Assembly: GCF_900182705.1 (NCBI RefSeq)
Contig: NZ_FXTP01000008.1
Span: 124,001 to 188,000, forward strand
DNA from: Gracilimonas mengyeensis
GTDB taxonomy: Bacteria > Bacteroidota > Rhodothermia > Balneolales > Balneolaceae
DNA length: 64,000 nt
Direction: 5' to 3'
The translations under genes were made by a program, and so were the position numbers. The notes below the pieces were generated by a model, which was not told the DNA's origin, did not search any database, and saw nothing but the letters and a program-made list of their open reading frames with translations. This document shows, piece by piece, positions 8,766 to 34,629 of the stretch. Within the stretch, counting starts at the first letter, position 1; each line of letters starts with the position of its first letter.

Positions 8766-10295
8766 TTAAAGTTTATCGACGGCCAATTTGTAGGTGGGAT
8801 CTTCCATCACGTTTACATCAATGATATCATCAGCATTTGAAAGCAATTTGCGACAGTCTTTACTCAAATGTTTTAGATGCACCTTCTTACCCACTTTCTG
8901 ATATCGCTCCGTAATCTTATTTAACGCCTCAATGGCCGACATATCCACTACACGGCTTTCGGCGAAATCTATAATCACTTCCTCCGGATCATTGAGTACA
9001 TCAAATTTAGAGTTGAATACCGTAACCGAACCGAAAAACAGCGGTCCATAAATTTCGTAGTGTTTGGCACCATTCTCATCGATGTGCTTGCGGGCACGAA
9101 TGCGCTTAGAGTTTTCCCAGGCAAATACAAGAGCAGCTATAATCACACCAATTAAAACCGCTAAAGCCAGGTTATGCAGGAACGCGGTGATTAGAGTAAC
9201 CAATACCATCACTATAATATCAGGTGTTGGCATGCGGTTAAATGTTCGCAGACTGGCCCACTCAAAGGTTCCCACAGCTACCATAATCATCAAGCCGGTG
9301 AGTGCTGCCATGGGCATCAGCTCAATCAAACCGGAACCAAACATGATAAACACCAGCAACATTACCGAAGCTACGATCCCGGAGATACGGGTTCGGGCAC
9401 CGGAGGAAACGTTAATAAGACTTTGGCCGATCATCGCGCAGCCACCCATCCCTGAAAAGAAACCGGAGAAAATATTGGCAATACCTTGTGCCTTAGCCTC
9501 CTGGTTGCCATTTCCACGGGTCTCTGTAATTTCATCGATAATGTTCAAGGTCAGCAAACTTTCAATCAAACCTACTCCGGCCATAATCGCTGAATACGGT
9601 AGAATCAGCATAAAAGCTTCCCAGGTAAGCGGTATTTCCGGAATGTGAAACGGGGGGAAACCACCGCTGATAGAGGCTATATCGCCCACTGTGCGCGTTT
9701 CTATCCCAAAGGCAACTACCACTGCGAAGACCGTCACGATAGCCGTCAGAGAGGCCGGTATGGCTTTGGTAATCTTGGGCAGTCCCCAGATAATGAGGAT
9801 GGTAAGTGCCACCAATCCCAAGATCGTAAATAACGGCTCACCGGATAACCATGCACCGGAAGGACCTTTAAACTGGTCCAGCTGAGACATAAAGATGATG
9901 ATGGCCAATCCGTTTACGAAACCGAATATTACGGGGTGGGGGACCAGACGCATCAGCTTACCGAGTTTCAGTGAACCGGCAATCACCTGCAGAATTCCCG
10001 CTAGAATAACGGTAGCAAAAATGTATTCAGGTCCATGTGATTGCGCCAAGGCAACCAGCACTACGGCTACAGCTCCGGTTGCGCCGGAAATCATGCCGGG
10101 GCGTCCGCCAATGATGGAAGTCACTAATCCCATCATAAAGGCTGCATACAGTCCTGTCAAAGGTGACAGACCGGCAATCATCGCAAAAGCTACCGCTTCG
10201 GGAATTAAGGCCATAGCCACGGTCAGGCCCGCCAGGGTTTCAGTTTTATAGTCTATTTTATCATTGAGACCAAAAAGGTCCAGGTACTTCTTCAT
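8766..10295 (-). CDS. SulP-family anion transporter with C-terminal STAS domain
   Basis: A 509-residue protein with 10-14 membrane segments, including the family signature LTVAMALIPEAVAFAMIAGLSPLTGLY split over the first two helices, and a cytosolic STAS domain from about residue 400. SulP proteins carry sulfate, bicarbonate or dicarboxylates; short bacterial members of this type include bicarbonate transporters, and the substrate cannot be fixed here. The STAS region (VIIDFAESRVVDMSAIEAL) keeps the fold that resembles anti-sigma-factor antagonists. It stands alone, with a 424-bp spacer upstream. Confidence 0.93.
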   Translation of the reverse strand: MKKYLDLFGLNDKIDYKTETLAGLTVAMALIPEAVAFAMIAGLSPLTGLYAAFMMGLVTSIIGGRPGMISGATGAVAVVLVALAQSHGPEYIFATVILAGILQVIAGSLKLGKLMRLVPHPVIFGFVNGLAIIIFMSQLDQFKGPSGAWLSGEPLFTILGLVALTILIIWGLPKITKAIPASLTAIVTVFAVVVAFGIETRTVGDIASISGGFPPFHIPEIPLTWEAFMLILPYSAIMAGVGLIESLLTLNIIDEITETRGNGNQEAKAQGIANIFSGFFSGMGGCAMIGQSLINVSSGARTRISGIVASVMLLVFIMFGSGLIELMPMAALTGLMIMVAVGTFEWASLRTFNRMPTPDIIVMVLVTLITAFLHNLALAVLIGVIIAALVFAWENSKRIRARKHIDENGAKHYEIYGPLFFGSVTVFNSKFDVLNDPEEVIIDFAESRVVDMSAIEALNKITERYQKVGKKVHLKHLSKDCRKLLSNADDIIDVNVMEDPTYKLAVDKL

Positions 10296-10719: not shown

Positions 10720-11334
10720 TCAGGCTTTTACTTTTTCAGGTGAATACACCATATCCAGAAAATTTTGTAGAATAAGTGAACCTACGTTCCCCGATTTTTC
10801 GGGATGAAACTGTACCCCAATAAAATTGTCTTTGGCCACAATGGCTGTAAAGTCATTAATGTAATTGCAGGCTGCCAGTGTATCTTCACTTACCGGGGCA
10901 TAGTAACTGTGTACAAAATACAGATAATGTTTAGGGATGATGTTCCTAAGAATCGGATGTGACTCAACCTGTAGGTTGATACGGTTCCAACCCATGTGTG
11001 GTACTTTGGCCTGACTTTCATCAAACTTCTCCAGGCCTCCGTCTATAATACCCAAACCTACCGTGTTACCCTCACTTGAGGTTTCATATAGCAACTGCAT
11101 CCCAACACAGATTCCCAACACCGGCTTTTCGGTATTCTTTAACCATGTATCAATTTTTTGATCTTTAAGCGACTGCATGGCTGCACCGGCATGGCCTACG
11201 CCTGGAAAAATAATTCCGTCCGCTTTATTCAGTTCGTCAGGTGTTTCAGCTAAATAATAATCCGTACCCAGCCGCTCAAGTGCATTTGCGACAGAGGCTG
11301 TATTCCCAGCTTTATACTTGATGATAGCAATCAT
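10720..11334 (-). CDS. hisH: Imidazole glycerol phosphate synthase, glutamine amidotransferase subunit
   Basis: HisH releases ammonia from glutamine and channels it to HisF, which forms imidazole glycerol phosphate and AICAR. The 204-residue protein is a class I amidotransferase with nucleophile C76 in PVLGICVGMQLLYE and the partner residues H177 and E179 in GVQFHPEKSG; all three are present. It follows hisB by seven bases and is the last his gene in the window; hisA, hisF and hisI are not present. Confidence 0.96.
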   Translation of the reverse strand: MIAIIKYKAGNTASVANALERLGTDYYLAETPDELNKADGIIFPGVGHAGAAMQSLKDQKIDTWLKNTEKPVLGICVGMQLLYETSSEGNTVGLGIIDGGLEKFDESQAKVPHMGWNRINLQVESHPILRNIIPKHYLYFVHSYYAPVSEDTLAACNYINDFTAIVAKDNFIGVQFHPEKSGNVGSLILQNFLDMVYSPEKVKA

Positions 11335-11341
11335 GAATGAC

Positions 11342-12226
11342 CTACAAAGTTCCTTTGGAACTTGGAATTTGGTTTTTTATTCGCCCGTTTTGTTCTATAG
11401 CCATCTTTAGAGCCCGGGCAAGACCCTTAAAGCAGGCTTCTATTTTGTGGTGATCATTTTTTCCGGCAAAGCTAACATGTAATGTGGCTTTCAAGTTCAT
11501 CGCCAGGCTATAAAAAAAATGTTCAATCATTTCAGTGGGAAAGTCACCTACATACTCTCTCCTTAAAGAGCCTTCAAAAACTAAATATGGCCTTCCAGAC
11601 AAATCTATAGCCACCGTAGCTTGCGTTTCGTCCATAGGTAACACAAAACCATAACGTTCAATTCCCTTTTTTTCTCCAAGTGCTTTAGTAATCACTTCAC
11701 CCAGTGCAATGGCTACATCCTCTATGGTGTGGTGCTCATCCACTTCCAGGTCACCGTCACACTTCAGTTTTAAATCAATGAGCCCGTGCCGGGCAATTTG
11801 GTCCAGCATGTGATCAAAAAAGTTTAAACCCGTAGAAATATCGGCTTTCCCTGTTCCATCCAGGTTTATTTCTATGTTAATGTCCGTTTCATTGGTTTTT
11901 CGCTGGATGGAAGCTGTTCGTGCTTTGGTGGTAATGAACTTAACTACAGCTCCCCAGCTCTCCGATTCAATCAATACCTCATCTTCTTTTTTCAGCACCA
12001 GCTTGCCCTCAACTTCATCAATCAAGAAATCAGGCTCGCCATCTTCAAAAAGAGAAACATTCTCTTGCTCTAATATTTTTTTTTGGTCTGGGGATAGGTC
12101 GGCTGTAGACACATGAATGTCCCGCCCGCCATCGGAAATACTTTTCAGGGATGATATGGTTTGTTCTCTGAACAGGAACTCCCCATTTGGATCATTCAGT
12201 GCTTTTTTAGTGATGGAAATGAGCAT
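11342..12226 (-). CDS. hisB: Imidazoleglycerol-phosphate dehydratase with an eroded N-terminal phosphatase domain
   Basis: Residues from about 105 to 294 form a complete IGP dehydratase, with FFDHMLDQIARHG, the metal-binding HHTIEDVAIALGE, STEMIEHFF-like and DHHKIEACFKGLARAL motifs and the usual PSSKGTL end. In bifunctional HisB the domain before it is a HAD histidinol-phosphatase of about 165 residues. Here only about 100 residues remain and the catalytic DxDGT motif is missing, but the linker W-x7-I...A-x3-R-x-T-x-ET-x-I still matches that of bifunctional HisB. I read it as a relic of the fused enzyme, so histidinol-phosphatase must come from another gene. It is in an operon with hisH. Confidence 0.93.
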   Translation of the reverse strand: MLISITKKALNDPNGEFLFREQTISSLKSISDGGRDIHVSTADLSPDQKKILEQENVSLFEDGEPDFLIDEVEGKLVLKKEDEVLIESESWGAVVKFITTKARTASIQRKTNETDINIEINLDGTGKADISTGLNFFDHMLDQIARHGLIDLKLKCDGDLEVDEHHTIEDVAIALGEVITKALGEKKGIERYGFVLPMDETQATVAIDLSGRPYLVFEGSLRREYVGDFPTEMIEHFFYSLAMNLKATLHVSFAGKNDHHKIEACFKGLARALKMAIEQNGRIKNQIPSSKGTL

Positions 12227-12432: not shown

Positions 12433-13482
12433 TTACAGACTTCCAAGCGCTTCAAAAAACCGGTCATTTTCCACTGAGGTTCCTACCGTCAGTCGCAGGC
12501 AATTTTCACAATGCGGTTCATTTCCGCGATAGCGAACAATCACGCCTTCATCTGCCAGCTTTTTATACACTTCCTGAGCATCATCAATACGAAACATTAC
12601 AAAATTAGCATCCGTGGGGAATACTTTCTCCACCTGTGGAAAAGTAACCAGTTCAGCAATTACCCGCTCCCGCTCTTCCATGATGGCTTCAATATTCCGT
12701 GTAACATCATCGAGGCTGGAAAAAGCCTGCAGGGCTTTCTGAGAGGTGAGCTTATTCACATTGTAAGGAGCCTTTACTTTCATCATGTACGAGATGATTT
12801 CCGGGTTGGCCAGTGCTACTCCCAACCGAATGCCGGCCAGTCCAAATGATTTTGACATCGTTTGTAATACCACCAAATTAGTAAACTCTTCCAGGTTATT
12901 GGCGAGGCTACCCTGCTGGCTGAAATCAATATATGCTTCATCTACCACCACCATGCCATCAAAACCTTCCAGCACTTTCGCGATATCAGTCACACTCATG
13001 CTGTTGGCAGTGGGATTGTTGGGCGAGCAGATAAAAATCAGCTTGGTTTCCGGTTTCACTGCTTCTAAGATTTTCTCCGGCTGCAACTGGAAACCTTCTG
13101 TGAGCAGTACTTCATCCACTGCCACATCGTTGATGTTGGCCGACACTTTATACATCCCATAAGTTGGAGGGTTGATGATAATGCGATCCTTACCCGGCCG
13201 GCAGAATATCCGGAACAGCAGGTCAATAGCTTCATCACTGCCCACGCCTACAAATACATTTTCGCGATTCACGCCGCGAAAGGTGGCAATTTTATCCCGC
13301 AACAGCTCTTGGTATGGCATGGGGTAACGGTTCAGTTCAAGGTCGTCTGCGTAGGGAGCCCCAAAACTGTTCTCGTTGGCATCCAGCAAAATCCCGGAAT
13401 CAAAATCATCCCGTGCACTGCGATAAGGTTTCAGGTTTCTAATGTTTTCCCTCACCAGGGAGTTGATGTCTATTTTCTTCAT
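12433..13482 (-). CDS. hisC: Histidinol-phosphate aminotransferase
   Basis: HisC transaminates imidazole acetol phosphate to histidinol phosphate, using glutamate and PLP. The 349-residue protein has the class II aminotransferase layout: LDANENSFGAP near residue 33, CSPNNPTANS, VVDEAYIDF, the PLP lysine K211 in MSKSFGLAGIRLG, and the C-terminal VRYRGNEPHCENCLRLTVG. It is third in the his operon, separated from hisD and hisB by spacers that each carry one copy of the his-spacer repeat. Confidence 0.96.
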   Translation of the reverse strand: MKKIDINSLVRENIRNLKPYRSARDDFDSGILLDANENSFGAPYADDLELNRYPMPYQELLRDKIATFRGVNRENVFVGVGSDEAIDLLFRIFCRPGKDRIIINPPTYGMYKVSANINDVAVDEVLLTEGFQLQPEKILEAVKPETKLIFICSPNNPTANSMSVTDIAKVLEGFDGMVVVDEAYIDFSQQGSLANNLEEFTNLVVLQTMSKSFGLAGIRLGVALANPEIISYMMKVKAPYNVNKLTSQKALQAFSSLDDVTRNIEAIMEERERVIAELVTFPQVEKVFPTDANFVMFRIDDAQEVYKKLADEGVIVRYRGNEPHCENCLRLTVGTSVENDRFFEALGSL

Positions 13483-13757: not shown

Positions 13758-15047
13758 TTATTCGATGTTTCTTAATCTCAGGCTCACTGCATTCTTATGC
13801 GCCTGAAGTTCTTCTAAATCTGCCAGTTTTTCCACTGCAGGTCCAATATTTTTCAAGCCTTCCTCATTTAGTGACTGCATGGTCACTGATTTTTGAAAAG
13901 CCGCCAGGTTCACCCCGCTGTACATTCGGGCATATCCATAGGTAGGCAAGGTGTGATTGGTGCCCGAGGCATAATCGCCCACGCTTTCAGGGGTAAGCTG
14001 TCCTAAAAACACCGATCCGGCATTAATGATTAGATCGGTGTATGACTCAGCTTCCTCCACATTCACTATCAAATGCTCCGGAGCATATTGATTGGAGAAT
14101 GAAAAAGCTTCCTCCAACGAATCTACTACCAGCGTGAAACTGTTATCCAGGGCTTTCGCTGCCATTTCTTTGCGAGGCAACGCATCCAGTTGCACCTCTA
14201 ATTCTGTATTCAAAACTTCTAAATTGAATTCAGCAGTGGCCACCAATACCACCTGGCTGTCTTTGCCATGCTCAGCCTGGGAGAGCAAGTCGGCCGCCAC
14301 AAAAGCAGGATTGGCCTCACCGTCTGCAACCACCAATACCTCCGACGGTCCCGCCGGCATATCAATACTGATCTGTGCTTCCGAGTTTTGCAGAATCATC
14401 TTTGCGGCCGTCACATACTGGTTACCGGGACCAAAAATTTTGTCCACTTTCGGCACCGAATCAGTTCCCAATGCCATGGCGGCAACCGCCTGCGCACCGC
14501 CTGCCAGCAAAATGGTGTCAATACCTGCTTTCTGTGCTATGTAAATGATTTCCGGAGCTACGGTTCCATCTTTCCGGGGCGGAGTGGCCAGCACTTTGGT
14601 GGTACAACCAGCAATCATGGCCGGGATGGATAACATCATTGCGGTTGAAGGTAAAATGGCGGTTCCTCCCGGCACGTACAATCCCACCCGCTCAATGGGC
14701 CGCGTCACTTTCATACATCGCACACCCGGCATGGTCTCCACCTCCATGGGCTCCGGATATTGGGCTTTGTGAAACCGGAAGATGTTATCGAAAGCCACAT
14801 CGATGGCTTCTTTTGTTTCCTCATCAACCGTCACTTCTGTTTCTTGTGGGTTGATAACCACGGAATCCAATTTCACCCCGTCAAATTGTTCAGTGAATTT
14901 CCTGACGGCCTCATCGCCATTTTTCTCTACCGCATCCAAAATCGGTTGTACTGTTTGGAAGATGGAACTGAAATCAATTTTGGGCCGCTTCAGCAGCTTG
15001 TTTGATTCTTCCTGCGATAATTCTGAGTAGTTATATGTTTTCATCAT
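13758..15047 (-). CDS. hisD: Histidinol dehydrogenase
   Basis: HisD oxidises histidinol to histidine in two NAD+-dependent steps and uses zinc. The product is about 430 residues. Seen in it are the [22 protein letters not shown] segment, [38 protein letters not shown] with catalytic and zinc-binding residues, and [21 protein letters not shown] followed by NHTLPT. The reading frame is open further upstream, but I place the start at the double ATG at 15047/15044 because a GAGG box lies five bases before 15047 and the protein should begin near MKTYNYSEL. Confidence 0.96.
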
Positions 15048-15208
15048 ATTTACCTCTTGGTTGGAGGCTGAGCCTCCTAAAAGCATTCCGCAGCAGAGCA
15101 GCGGAGCGAGTGATATCGTTATTCAAAATGTCACGCTCCAACACAGAATGCGAGAGCGAGTAGCAGTAAGTGTTTGGGGAAATTCTGGCACTGATTCCTT
15201 GGCACCAG

Positions 15209-15279: not shown

Positions 15280-16161
15280 CTACATAATCATGCTTTCAAT
15301 GGGCAGCATCACGATGTCCGTGGCTCCGGCGGCTTTCAGCTCTTCCATTACCGTCCAGAATTTCTCGATAGGAATCACGGTATGAACAGCCACCATATCT
15401 TTTTCAGCCAGCGGCATTACCGTAGGGCTTTTCATAGAAGGAATAATTTTTTTGATTTCTTCCACTGAAGCCTCCGGGGCGTTCATCATAATATACCGGC
15501 TTTTTGCTGCTTGCTGATGGCCATCCATACGTACTAAAAACTTCTCAATCAGCTGCTGCTTGCCCGGTGAGAGTTCTTTATTGGTGCGAATGAGTTGCGT
15601 CTGGGATTCAAGAATAGTGTTCAGTTCCACCAAACCATTTGCTTTCAGCGTACCGCCCGAGGAAACCAGGTCAACAATGGCATCAGCCACTTCCAGCTGG
15701 GGGGCAATTTCCACCGCGCCGGCAATCTCAATAATTTGAATATCAATGCCACGGCTCTCAAAAAACTTCCGGGTCAGATTGGGATAACTGGTGGCTACTT
15801 TCTTTCCGTCAAAATCTTCCGGCTTTTTGATGTCTCCGTTTTTTGGAGCGGCCAAAGAAAGCCGGCATTTTCCATATCCTAAATCCCTGATGGCTGTTAC
15901 ATCGGCGCCGGTTTCCTGTGTTTCATTAGCGCCTACAAAGCCAAGGTCGCATACACCATCTTGCACATACTCGGGAATATCATCATCCCGAAGCAGTAGC
16001 AACTCTACATCAAAGTTGCGGGTTTTAACAATCAGGTTGCGCTTGTAGTTATCAAATTCAATGCCAATGCCTTCCAGCAAATCAATGGTTTTATCGGTCA
16101 AACGACCGCTTTTCTGGATGGCAATGCGTAATGAGGTAGAAGAATCCTTCGTTCGGTTCAT
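15280..16161 (-). CDS. hisG: ATP phosphoribosyltransferase, long form
   Basis: HisG joins ATP and PRPP, the first and feedback-regulated step of histidine synthesis. At 293 residues it is the long form, with a catalytic domain (LRIAIQKSGRL start; DLVSSGGTLKANGL PRPP-binding region near residues 171-184) and a C-terminal regulatory domain from about 215 (MMNAPEASVEEIKKIIPSMKSPTV), so it does not need HisZ. It is the first enzyme gene of the operon and is preceded by a His-rich leader ORF and alternative hairpins, which fits histidine-dependent attenuation. Confidence 0.96.
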   Translation of the reverse strand: MNRTKDSSTSLRIAIQKSGRLTDKTIDLLEGIGIEFDNYKRNLIVKTRNFDVELLLLRDDDIPEYVQDGVCDLGFVGANETQETGADVTAIRDLGYGKCRLSLAAPKNGDIKKPEDFDGKKVATSYPNLTRKFFESRGIDIQIIEIAGAVEIAPQLEVADAIVDLVSSGGTLKANGLVELNTILESQTQLIRTNKELSPGKQQLIEKFLVRMDGHQQAAKSRYIMMNAPEASVEEIKKIIPSMKSPTVMPLAEKDMVAVHTVIPIEKFWTVMEELKAAGATDIVMLPIESMIM

Positions 16162-16228: not shown

Positions 16229-16287
16229 GACGTGCGAAATTAATGCACATCAATGTGGTGATGTCCGCGATGGGCATGATGGACATC
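16229..16287 (-). promoter_or_regulatory. Candidate histidine attenuator (alternative hairpins)
   Basis: Four segments on the minus strand can pair in mutually exclusive ways. 1:2 is GATGTCC (16287-16281) with GGACATC (16266-16260), seven pairs. 2:3 is ACATCA (16264-16259) with TGATGT (16252-16247), six pairs. 3:4 is GATGTGC (16251-16245) with GCACGTC (16235-16229), seven pairs with one wobble, followed by pyrimidine-rich CTCTCTTTTTCT. This is the classical 1:2, 2:3, 3:4 logic of amino-acid operon attenuators and overlaps the His codons. The U-tract is not immediate, so the terminator is weak by eye. The pairings are seen directly; their function is inferred. Confidence 0.6.
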
Positions 16288-16329
16288 GTGATGAATATGA
16301 TGAGTGATATGGAGGCTGTTTTTTATCAC
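16240..16329 (-). CDS. hisL: Histidine operon leader peptide (12 His in 29 residues)
   Basis: An open frame just before hisG reads from GTG at 16329 to TAA at 16242-16240 and encodes 29 residues, 12 of them His, in clusters HH, HH, HH and HHH. An in-frame TTG at 16353 would add eight residues. Such His density directly upstream of hisG is what a ribosome-stalling leader needs. The last 80 bp before hisG hold the terminator-like hairpin. A TTGTCA-17 bp-TATTTT promoter lies at 16364-16336, but its start point would fall almost on the GTG, so either translation is nearly leaderless or the real promoter is upstream. The gene is too short for ordinary gene finders. Confidence 0.72.
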   Translation of the reverse strand: MIKNSLHITHHIHHDVHHAHRGHHHIDVH

Positions 16330-16390
16330 GGATTCAAAATAGGCATTGTTCAATTTCTTGACAACTAAGCAGCTAACATTTTCAGATAAT

Positions 16391-16645
16391 TTAATATTGG
16401 TTCGGGCTTACAAAGCGACCCACTTCTTCTTTTCTCTTTTTGCGGTGTTTGGTATACCGCCCGCTTACCCGCTTTCTCCACATCTTAAAACTGGATCGTT
16501 TCATTTCTTTTCGCATCAGCGCGATGGTTTCCTCCTCATCCAGGCCAAATTGAAATTCGATGGCATCAAAAGGCGTGCGGTCTTCCCATGCCATTTCAAT
16601 GATTCTGCTTTTATCTGCTTTGGATAGTTTATCTAAATCAGCCAT
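16391..16645 (-). CDS. DUF2805 / TIGR03643 family protein
   Basis: An 84-residue basic cytosolic protein with the family pattern SRIIEMAWEDRTPFDAIEF, QFGLDEEETIALMRKEMK and SSFKMWRKRVSGRYTKH. The central part looks like a helix-turn-helix (Asp-Ala-Ile-x5-Gly-Leu-x4), so nucleic-acid binding is possible but unproven. It lies directly upstream of the his leader on the same strand; its stop is only about 40-60 bp before the leader start, so read-through into the his operon is possible. Confidence 0.85.
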   Translation of the reverse strand: MADLDKLSKADKSRIIEMAWEDRTPFDAIEFQFGLDEEETIALMRKEMKRSSFKMWRKRVSGRYTKHRKKRKEEVGRFVSPNQY

Positions 16646-31101: not shown

Positions 31102-34100
31102 ATGTACATATCCGAACTTGAATTACAGGGTTTTAAGAGCTTTGCCCATAAGACCAAGGTGAAGTTTGACAGCGGAATTACGTCTATCGTAGGGCCGAAT
31201 GGGTGTGGTAAATCTAATATTGTGGATGCCTTGCGCTGGGTGTTGGGGGAGCAACGGCCATCTTTGCTGAGATCCTCGGCTATGGCTAATGTGATTTTTA
31301 ACGGGACGGCTCAAAAGAAAGCCTTGGGGATGGCTGAAGTATCCCTGACTTTCGTTAACGATAAAGGCATTCTTCCGATTGAATACAGCGAAGTGACCAT
31401 CACACGGCGCCTGTACCGTTCCGGCGATAGCGAATACCTGATCAACGGCACCACCTGTCGGCTCAAAGATATCATGGAGCTTTTTATGGACACCGGGATG
31501 GGCTCGGATGCCTACTCGGTGATTGAGCTGAAAATGGTGGAGGAAATCCTTAACGATAAAAACAACGACCGCCGGCGACTGTTTGAAGAAGCGGCCGGTG
31601 TTACCAAGTACAAAGATCAGCGCAAGAAAACCATTCGTAAGTTAGAAAGTACCCGTAAGGATTTGCAACGGGTGGACGATTTGCTGATAGAGCTCCGCAA
31701 GAAGGCGCGATCGCTGGAGATACAGGCCGAGAAGGCGCAAAAAGCCAAAGTGTATAAAGACGAGCTGGAACAGCTGGACAAAGCCCTAACTCTACATGAT
31801 TTCAACAAGATTAAGGATGAGCTGGAGCCGCTGAAAGAGCGCATCGCTAATGCGGATAAAGAGAAGAAAGAAATTGCCAAAGCTATTGAGGAGCTGGAAG
31901 AAAATGATGAAAAAGCCCGCGCGGAATTGGTGGAAAAAGAGCGTCAGCAGGCTGAAGCTCAGCGCCGGGTAAGTCAGCTGCACAATACGCTCCGCGAAGC
32001 CGATACCAACCTGCGCATCACCCGTGAAAAGATCGAGAATGAGAAAAAGGTGATTGCCGAATATGGCAAGGATATTGAAAGCGGGGAAAAGGATCTAAAA
32101 GAGCTTAAAGACCTGCTGGAATCAAGTCGTGACAAGCTGGAAGGCTATGACGATGAGATGGCAAAATCCGTGCAGGCGCTGGAAGATTCCAAGAAGAAAT
32201 ACAACCAAATTCAGCAGCAATATAACCGCGAGCGCAGTGAACTTTATGAGATTGAAGTAGAGTTGAGCGCGGCGAATAATGAATTGAGTCAGCTGCAGAC
32301 CAAGCGCATCAAAATTGAAAGTCGGCTGGAAAACACTGAAGGCGACCTGGAACGCATTGATGATGAAATCACCGACCTGAATGATGAGATTGAAAACCTG
32401 AACGGGGAGCAGGGACTCATTGAGAAAAAGCTGGACAAACTGGTAGTTAACCGCGATGAACTGGAGGAAGAGCTGGAAACGGCGCGTGAAAAGCGTGAGC
32501 AATTCGCCGACAAACAGAACGAAATTAAAGACGAGCTCCGAACCCTTCAGAGTAAAAAGGAGTCGCTGGAATCAGAGATCAACTTGATGAACGATCTGGC
32601 GGCTTCCAATGAAGCATTCCCCGGAAGCGTGAAGTACCTGATTGAAAATCACCGCTTCGACTTTAAAGAGATGACAACGGTCTCCGAGATTTTCAACACC
32701 GATCAGGAGCACGCCGTGGCGCTGGAAGCCGTGCTGGGCGATGTACTTAATTTTGTGGTTGTAAAAACCTTGGATGAGGCGCAGCGAGCCGCCAAAATCC
32801 TCAAAGATAATGAGAAAGGCCGGGCCACTTTTATTCCGCTTGATCAGCTGGCCGCAACCTATCCCGTTAAAGACGGGAGTTTGTTTGATGAGGTCAAATC
32901 CAAGCGGGATCATTCCGCCCTGAAACAACTGTTGCTTGGAAATGTACTGGTGTTTGATTCGGTGGAAGAAGCCTATCAAGGCACCAAAAACCAAGATGAT
33001 GTAGTTGGAGTGACCTACGACGGTGAAGTGGTTACCGACAACAAATTTTTCCAGAGCGGAAGCAAGAGCAAGAATGCCGGTATCCGCGTGGGGCTGAAGG
33101 ACAAAATTGAGAAGCTGGAGAAAGAAGAAGCGAAAGTCTCCAAAGAAATCACCAAGCTGGAAGAATATCTGCAGCAGATCGTAGAGAAATACGAGAAGCT
33201 GGACATTGGCAAGCTCAGCCAGATGCTGAAAGAAAAAGAGCAGGAAGTGCGCCGGCTGGAGCAACAGCAACAGAGTTTGAGTTCCAAAGTATCGGTGTAT
33301 CAGAAGAATATCGGTGAGCTGGTGAATCGTAAAGATCATTTGAAAAGCAGCGAGGGCACGGCCCAGGAAGAACTCAACTCCATTCAACCCAAACAGAAAG
33401 AGCTTCAGCAAAAAATGCTGGCGCTGGATGAGAAACAGCAGGAGAAAAAAGACCTGCTGGAGACGCTGGAAGAAGAACGCTCCATCGCCCAAAGCCGCTA
33501 CAACGATACCCAGCTCAAGCATCAGGATTTAAAGAACAAGGTGGAAAACCTGGAGCGGGATGTGCAGCGGGCCGAGACCGGCATCGAAAACGTGAAGAAG
33601 CGAATCGAAAACCGTACGCGTCTTACCGAAGAAAGTAAAGAGCGCATTGAAACGCTGACCTCCAAAACCAAGGAGCTTCAGGAAACCATCACCACCAACA
33701 GCGAGCTGAAAGAGAAAGCAGACGAGACGCTCAAAAAAGCCGAAGAAGCGGCCGCCAAACAACGTGGTAAAATCAACGAGATTGAGAAAGAGCTGAAGGA
33801 AGTGCGTCGCCGTAAAGAGGTGAACATGGAGCTGGTGCATCACCTGGATATGGCCCGCGAGAAGATGGAAATGCAGAGTCAGACGCTGTCCGATCACATC
33901 TGGGAAACCTACGGCGTGCTGATGAAGCAGATTGATGAAGAGCTGCCGGAAGACAAGACGCCGGAAGAGGCTAAAGAGCGCATCAGCTGGCTAAAACAGA
34001 AGCTGAATCGCATTGGAGAAGTAAACCCACTGGCCATTGAGGAATACAAGGAAGAGAAAGAGCGGCTCGATTTTTATGAAGAGCAGATCATGGACCTGGA

Positions 34101-34629
34101 AGAGGCCGAAGAGCAGCTGCTGGAAACCATTGATGAAATTAACGAGACGGCTACTGAACGTTTCAATACTACGTTTGAACGCATCAGGCAGAATTTCCAG
34201 AAAGTATTTAAAACCCTGTTTGAAGCCGATGACTATTGCGACCTGATTATTGAACAGGATGTGGAAGATCCGCTGGAAGCCCGCATTGAGATTAAAGCCC
34301 AGCCGCGGGGTAAGCGTCCTTCGGGTATTTCGCAACTGTCGGGTGGGGAAAAAACACTGACGGCCATTGCCCTTCTTTTCGCCATCTACCTGGTAAAACC
34401 GTCGCCTTTCTGCGTGCTGGATGAGGTGGATGCCCCGCTGGATGACGCCAACATTGAGCGCTTCGCCAAGATGATCAAGGATTTCAGCCACGATACGCAG
34501 TTCATCATCATCACGCACAACAAAAAAACCATGAGCAAGGCCGAGATGATGTACGGGGTTACCATGCCAGATACCGGTGTTTCCCGCTTGGTTGGGGTGA
34601 AGCTGGACGAAGTGGAAGACGTGCTGTAG
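31102..34629 (+). CDS. smc: Chromosome segregation protein SMC
   Basis: A 1175-residue SMC ATPase. Walker A is GPNGCGKSNIVDALRW (about residues 32-47). Two long coiled coils flank a hinge at about 510-660 that starts at FPGSVKYLIENHRFDF and includes FVVVKTLDEAQRAAKIL. The C-terminal head has the signature SQLSGGEKTLTAIALLF and Walker B FCVLDEVDAPLDDANI. SMC compacts and segregates the chromosome with ScpA and ScpB, whose genes are not next to it. Normal length; the start ATG lies right after the inverted-repeat spacer. Confidence 0.97.
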   Translation: MYISELELQGFKSFAHKTKVKFDSGITSIVGPNGCGKSNIVDALRWVLGEQRPSLLRSSAMANVIFNGTAQKKALGMAEVSLTFVNDKGILPIEYSEVTITRRLYRSGDSEYLINGTTCRLKDIMELFMDTGMGSDAYSVIELKMVEEILNDKNNDRRRLFEEAAGVTKYKDQRKKTIRKLESTRKDLQRVDDLLIELRKKARSLEIQAEKAQKAKVYKDELEQLDKALTLHDFNKIKDELEPLKERIANADKEKKEIAKAIEELEENDEKARAELVEKERQQAEAQRRVSQLHNTLREADTNLRITREKIENEKKVIAEYGKDIESGEKDLKELKDLLESSRDKLEGYDDEMAKSVQALEDSKKKYNQIQQQYNRERSELYEIEVELSAANNELSQLQTKRIKIESRLENTEGDLERIDDEITDLNDEIENLNGEQGLIEKKLDKLVVNRDELEEELETAREKREQFADKQNEIKDELRTLQSKKESLESEINLMNDLAASNEAFPGSVKYLIENHRFDFKEMTTVSEIFNTDQEHAVALEAVLGDVLNFVVVKTLDEAQRAAKILKDNEKGRATFIPLDQLAATYPVKDGSLFDEVKSKRDHSALKQLLLGNVLVFDSVEEAYQGTKNQDDVVGVTYDGEVVTDNKFFQSGSKSKNAGIRVGLKDKIEKLEKEEAKVSKEITKLEEYLQQIVEKYEKLDIGKLSQMLKEKEQEVRRLEQQQQSLSSKVSVYQKNIGELVNRKDHLKSSEGTAQEELNSIQPKQKELQQKMLALDEKQQEKKDLLETLEEERSIAQSRYNDTQLKHQDLKNKVENLERDVQRAETGIENVKKRIENRTRLTEESKERIETLTSKTKELQETITTNSELKEKADETLKKAEEAAAKQRGKINEIEKELKEVRRRKEVNMELVHHLDMAREKMEMQSQTLSDHIWETYGVLMKQIDEELPEDKTPEEAKERISWLKQKLNRIGEVNPLAIEEYKEEKERLDFYEEQIMDLEEAEEQLLETIDEINETATERFNTTFERIRQNFQKVFKTLFEADDYCDLIIEQDVEDPLEARIEIKAQPRGKRPSGISQLSGGEKTLTAIALLFAIYLVKPSPFCVLDEVDAPLDDANIERFAKMIKDFSHDTQFIIITHNKKTMSKAEMMYGVTMPDTGVSRLVGVKLDEVEDVL

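Follow-up and report, generated by a model that had tools for sequence, protein, structure and literature searches.

We have analyzed a stretch of 64,000 nucleotides from Gracilimonas mengyeensis, a member of the Balneolaceae; "the window" below means the whole of this stretch. Its minus strand carries a his operon in the order hisG, hisD, hisC, hisB and hisH, preceded by a short His-rich open reading frame. The features of the locus, followed along that strand, are these:

16362-16364, minus strand: candidate -33 element, TTG, lying 20 nt ahead of the TA in the -7 box
16335-16341, minus strand: candidate -7 box, TATTTTG, an imperfect match to TAnnTTTG (4 of 6 positions)
16240-16329, minus strand: his leader ORF with its stop; GTG start, 29 codons, 12 His, TAA
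16309-16311, minus strand: codon 7 of the leader, the first His codon and the likely stall codon
16260-16287, minus strand: hairpin A, GATGTCC paired with GGACATC, within the His codons and beginning at leader nt 43
16229-16251, minus strand: hairpin B, GATGTGC paired with GCACGTC, with the leader TAA in its loop
16162-16239, minus strand: spacer from the leader stop to hisG, the proposed Rho-loading stretch; 78 nt, 25.6% C, 52.6% T and 3.8% G
15280-16161, minus strand: hisG (TIGR00070, 4.1e-61)
13758-15086, minus strand: hisD (TIGR00069, 7.3e-153), given as the longest frame; the true start may be internal
12433-13482, minus strand: hisC (TIGR01141, 3.3e-111)
11342-12226, minus strand: hisB (NF002111, 282.2 bits against a cut-off of 231); the dehydratase is the C-terminal part
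10720-11334, minus strand: hisH (TIGR01855, 1.1e-66)

The leader frame lies directly upstream of hisG, the first his gene of the operon. Its GTG start codon occupies 16329-16327 and its TAA stop 16242-16240, and it encodes the peptide VIKNSLHITHHIHHDVHHAHRGHHHIDVH, in which residue 1 is fMet if GTG is the start. Re-reading of the window bore out a preliminary description of this DNA as to the strand, the frame, the length of 29 codons and the count of 12 His; of the two start codons which that description allowed, GTG and TTG, the annotated one is GTG. The His codons are scattered through the frame rather than gathered in one run. A search of the whole window against Rfam gave no match at gathering score, and a lax threshold added chance-level matches only. 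The leader's immediate upstream neighbour, likewise on the minus strand, is a gene for a small protein of the TIGR03643 family, of unknown function (16391-16645). The HisB protein (11342-12226) carries about 100 N-terminal residues ahead of the dehydratase domain that fall outside most HisB models.

The His-rich frame is widely conserved. hisG is present in 87 of 92 Balneolaceae genomes, and the upstream DNA was read at 84 hisG loci, the partial genes of G027, G050 and G070 being left out. A His-rich leader is annotated at 77 of these 84 loci, in 17 genera and at all nine loci read in the window's genus, which places the frame beyond chance. Close relatives were inspected for such a frame as a potential refutation; it is present in them, and in distant relatives too. 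The 77 leaders encode between 4 and 12 His (mean 8.2) and start with GTG (49) or ATG (28). Codon 7 is His in 68 of them and is the first His in 60, and outside the His positions the peptide sequence differs widely from one leader to the next. The starts were chosen partly by the promoter box described below; 47 of the 77 leaders have just one possible in-frame start within 60 nt, and five starts (L038, L046, L060, L061 and L062) were set by hand. The seven loci outside the 77 comprise L047, left out because its His-rich frame is unlike the rest; L053 and L064, left out because they are cut by contig ends (L053 retains part of a His-rich frame); and L081 to L084, which have a divergent hisG without this leader. 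At L081 (G036) the divergent hisG, of 45% identity, is preceded by a short frame with 4 His and then, by eye, a classic hairpin-U terminator; hisG and attenuator look there as if replaced together.

The simplest account is a His-sensing leader peptide, and this is very probably correct; the ORF would then be the regulatory leader (hisL) of the Balneolaceae his operon. His-rich peptides can bind metals, and the frame could alternatively encode a small protein of such a kind, or have no regulatory role. Either is very improbable: the position before hisG is fixed at 77 of 84 loci, the peptide apart from its His varies widely, and the His-rich frame is missing from 16 of 18 hisG loci in family f5 of the Balneolales. 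As with enterobacterial hisL, a short His-rich ORF lies directly before the his operon, and this likeness is most naturally read as the translating ribosome sensing His-tRNA (PMC3896937).

The spacing between the leader start and the promoter is also conserved. In 69 of the 77 leaders the start codon follows the end of a box resembling TAnnTTTG (at least 4 of 6 positions) by 4-5 nt; 55 of 77 have a box with 5-6 matches at this distance, and no other offset up to 39 nt has one in more than 7 of 77. The conserved promoter box is located upstream of the leader GTG, and the gap from TTG to TA is most often 21 nt (29 counts in the 77 leaders). In Flavobacterium psychrophilum the -7 box is reported to cover -12 to -5 (PMC9723704). 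With this position and the box-to-start spacing, the leader start codon would fall at +1 or +2, and the leader mRNA should be leaderless, as judged from promoter geometry. The box of the window itself matches imperfectly (4 of 6), so that the leaderless reading of the window leans on the relatives. Leaderless mRNAs are described as a minority in F. psychrophilum (5.5%; PMC9723704), about 3.7% of 5' UTRs are reported to be shorter than 10 nt in B. thetaiotaomicron, and GUG is said to be a poor start codon for leaderless mRNAs in E. coli (PMC9031893).

The preliminary description fitted the leader to the classic his attenuator, with hairpins 1:2, 2:3 and 3:4, where 2:3 acts as antiterminator and 3:4 as intrinsic terminator. 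The window sequence does permit each of these pairings, as was claimed there (GATGTCC with GGACATC, 7 pairs; ACATCA with TGATGT, 6; GATGTGC with GCACGTC, 7), and MFE folding of the window leader yields the first and the third. Some relatives (e.g. L008, L043 and L078) have weak hairpins followed by T-rich DNA, and classic his leaders with terminators occur elsewhere in the phylum. Nevertheless, the scheme is not supported as an account of this leader, and we consider it unlikely. In the window leader, a scanner for hairpins of up to 45 nt immediately before a T-tract, which can miss weak or wide-loop terminators, detected no intrinsic terminator, and only two of the 77 his leaders (L006 and L065) have a terminator at -10 or better, the median being 0. 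A search that allowed any loop found stems of at least 6 pairs before a T-tract in just 7 of the 77, and a scan of the first 300 nt of hisG, covering 12 of 30 loci, gave one terminator at -10 or better. The 3:4 hairpin has no adjoining U-tract, and because the leader stop codon sits in its loop, a ribosome finishing the leader would block it. The 2:3 pairing is not conserved and was rejected as an antiterminator: its sum over 60 leaders of the family is -269.1, against a random-partner mean of -263.8 (sd 14.3), and within the genus it is strong in the window only (-8.9, versus -1.1 to -4.4 in the other 8).

The absence of a terminator is common to the Balneolaceae and some neighbours; the leaders read in families f3 and f4 (L177, L178, L180 and L181) have no terminator better than -6.9. 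Family f2 includes three genomes, G092, G094 and G095, in which a His-rich frame is accompanied by a terminator of -14 or better close to hisG. Terminators accompany leaders of other operons in the order Balneolales: trp leaders, picked by their WWW, have one in 7 of 7 cases (-15.9 to -20.5), four of them in Balneolaceae and one of these in the window's own genome, and three ilvD leaders, picked by peptide, have terminators of -9.7 to -14.8. Such trp leaders were seen at 7 of 20 trpE loci and ilv leaders at 3 of 13 ilvD loci; at the ilvD locus of the window's own genome no ilv leader was seen, and scans ahead of leuA and pheA yielded no clear result. The trp leader of the window's genome (L208, contig C1, upstream of a trpE match at 143129-143551) combines WWW with a strong intrinsic terminator, and similar trp leaders are found in six further Balneolales genomes. 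The ilv leaders (L254, L256 and L257) belong to the window's genus, are rich in Ile, Val and Leu, lie upstream of ilvD and are followed by a classic terminator. Seven his leaders from Melioribacteraceae, Chlorobiota and unclassified records have terminators of -14.5 to -20.5; these non-Balneolales leaders were chosen by eye with their terminators already visible, and they serve as a positive control rather than as a survey. Across the phylum, sampled evenly, hisG was present in 51 of 61 genomes. A scan of 40 loci, with approximate gene starts, found a His-rich frame with a terminator at eight that lie outside the Balneolales (L289, L290, L294, L296, L302, L305, L306 and L318). At two loci of genus g36 in family f5 (L194 and L195), the leader ends, with its last His codons and its stop, within a hairpin that is followed by a T-run, and a stalled ribosome could block this hairpin directly.

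Structure within and just beyond the leader frame was compared across the family. In 62 of 77 leaders, as against 56 of 227 codon-shuffled frames, the best in-frame hairpin begins within nt 37-43, and its energy is -7.47 in native leaders versus -4.72 (sd 2.61) after codon shuffling. With codon 7 in the A site of the ribosome, the start of hairpin A lies a few bases ahead of the ribosome. The complementary arms of hairpin A differ between genera. An own-versus-other comparison of arms is biased, the arms having been picked as the best hairpin, and the codon-shuffled controls were relied on instead. Against synonymous permutations, hairpin A is no more stable across the family (mean z -0.21). 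The window hairpins are likewise unexceptional, codons 8 to the end scoring -12.2 versus -14.9 for synonymous permutations. The preliminary description had warned that its pairings could be due to chance; this caution holds for the hairpins of the window, and does not extend to the His frame itself.

Pairing across the leader stop, as in hairpin B, is a family-wide signal: the energy summed over the family is -899.8, versus -707.5 (sd 26.5) with partners from other genera. A reversed control also falls below random (-720.2 versus -635.4, sd 23.2), so that composition explains part of this signal. GTGC before the stop and GCAC up to 50 nt after it occur together in 30 leaders, the first only in 7, the second only in 9 and neither in 31 (p = 2.8e-7, with no correction for relatedness). 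The spacers contain GCAC in 51% of cases, versus 7.5% of shuffled spacers. By genus, g19 alone gives a clear signal (mean z -2.78) and g11 a moderate one (-1.11); the window's genus, g1, has no excess over other-genus partners (mean z -0.13; the window, -1.59). In genus g3 the main hairpin comes after the stop and does not enclose it. The preliminary description had proposed to align relatives for a conserved His-rich ORF and compensatory changes in the stems. The ORF is kept, as seen above; blind covariation in MAFFT alignments gave helices within the range of column-shuffled alignments and not above the best of these. The best covarying helix reached 1.85 in g3, where shuffled alignments had a mean of 1.39 and a maximum of 2.09; the corresponding values were 1.4, 0.24 and 1.58 for group C and 1.3, 0.93 and 2.44 for group A. 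RNAalifold predicted hairpins in g3 and g19 alone, and groups A and C came out without structure.

A different pairing, P1, would join the 5' end of the transcript, including the start codon, to sequence beyond hairpin B; the closing stem would stop transcription or re-initiation, and a ribosome halted at codon 7 would cover the 5' end and prevent it. Long complementarity of this kind is found in g5 (mean z -3.68) and g7 (-3.18) relative to other-genus partners, and it is moderate in g21 (-1.6), g10 (-1.27) and g2 (-0.86). Neither the window's genus (mean z +0.19) nor g11 (-0.14) shows an excess, and the window's own value of -4.4 compares with a cross mean of -5.3. By eye P1 had looked like a general feature; the cross-genus control limits it to some genera, the window's excluded. 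Occlusion of the 5' end is a quite unlikely explanation for this leader.

The spacer between leader and hisG is poor in G throughout the family, with 26.6% C, 41.5% T and 7.1% G over the 77 leaders; nt 13-36 of the leader contain 3.4% G. The median of C minus G in the spacer is 0.20, versus 0.057 in the upstream regions of 33 window genes, hisG's included, and 0.050 upstream of 16 hisG genes of family f5. For two other genes of the window, at 31102-34629 and 8766-10295, the upstream region has as high an excess of C over G as that of hisG. Rho is described as using RNA that is high in C, low in G and weakly structured (PMC5021804), and a rho gene is present in the window's genome. Besides the main rho, that genome has a second open frame (405 aa) with a match to the Rho RNA-binding domain (G000:C6:181011-181223, 2.7e-10).

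Folds of the spacer bear on the possibility that the leader controls mRNA decay or translation of hisG rather than transcription. The spacer just before hisG is at least 90% unpaired in 51 of 77 folds when the coding part is omitted, which argues against translational masking, as do the alignments, in which no conserved structure reaches the hisG start. When 40 nt of hisG are added, only 18 of the 77 MFE folds leave the hisG start region (-20 to +10) at least 80% unpaired, which weakens the case against masking. The finding of no intrinsic terminator agrees with control of decay or translation, and for decay there is a precedent in the speF leader, where pausing of the ribosome at Arg codons is reported to select an RNase-resistant structure (PMC6386406). 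On balance we assign this explanation a small probability.

We prefer Rho-dependent termination, in which hairpin B would mask the spacer just as long as the ribosome stays upstream of it, a logic reported for the Salmonella mgtL leader. This reading fits the stop codon inside the hairpin, and the classic scheme does not. What points to Rho is the composition of the spacer together with the missing terminator. Transcription would start at the GTG or one base earlier, and ribosomes would load directly on the 5' end, reaching the first His codon at codon 7 and further His codons after it. With ample charged His-tRNA, the ribosome would reach the stop in the loop of hairpin B and open hairpins A and B. 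The G-poor, C/U-rich spacer would then be bare, and Rho could load and end transcription before hisG or early in it. When His-tRNA is short, the ribosome would halt near codon 7, and hairpins A and B, just ahead of it, could form and cover part of the stretch where Rho loads; RNA polymerase would then reach hisG. That the locus is a leaderless, ribosome-sensing his attenuator without an intrinsic terminator, probably dependent on Rho in the manner of mgtL, is a proposition that we regard as evenly balanced. The full sequence of events, in which the ribosome starts at base 1-2, halts at codon 7 and decides whether the stop-enclosing hairpin hides a Rho-loading spacer, unlike the hairpin-U type of the phylum, is offered tentatively, as possible rather than probable.

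Several known systems share parts of this arrangement. Enterobacterial hisL has one run of seven His, whereas in the Balneolaceae leader His is spread over the frame; the latter differs also in its predicted leaderless start and in that neither an intrinsic terminator, a conserved antiterminator nor an Rfam match was found for it. Classic his leaders elsewhere in the Bacteroidota and their relatives are likewise His-rich short ORFs before hisG, but they have a strong hairpin-U terminator (-14.0 to -20.5) that the Balneolaceae form lacks. In F. psychrophilum a structured element before hisG, kept in Flavobacteriaceae, has been reported, together with clues for leader-peptide attenuation ahead of amino-acid operons (PMC9723704). 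The mycobacterial polycysteine leader ORFs (Canestrari 2020) are described as leaderless and short attenuators that are likewise rich in one amino acid; they differ in using cysteine, in belonging to Actinobacteria and in a translational effect on downstream genes (PMC9031893). In the proline leader mgtL, a stem-loop made upon stalling is reported to mask the Rho region (PMC5021804); mgtL responds to proline and Mg2+ and is not described as leaderless, and in the Balneolaceae the part of Rho is putative. Before their Firmicutes case, leader-peptide systems had to the knowledge of Naville and Gautheret (2010) been demonstrated only in Proteobacteria and Actinobacteria (PMC2965389). Literature on his attenuation and leader peptides in Bacteroidetes and Balneola, within a coverage that leaves out most subscription journals, contained no account of this leader. 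Our best reading is that the Balneolaceae his leader is a variant, new in being leaderless and in having no intrinsic terminator.

The His at codon 7 and the spacing of start and promoter provide clear predictions for the bench, and the family offers many natural variants of RNA structure. If the proposed mechanism is true, ribosome-sensing amino-acid attenuation would be extended to the Balneolaceae, with a leader peptide encoded from the very 5' end of the transcript and with no use of an intrinsic terminator. Attenuation of two kinds would then operate in one cell, the trp operon and some ilv operons keeping the classic hairpin-U terminators.
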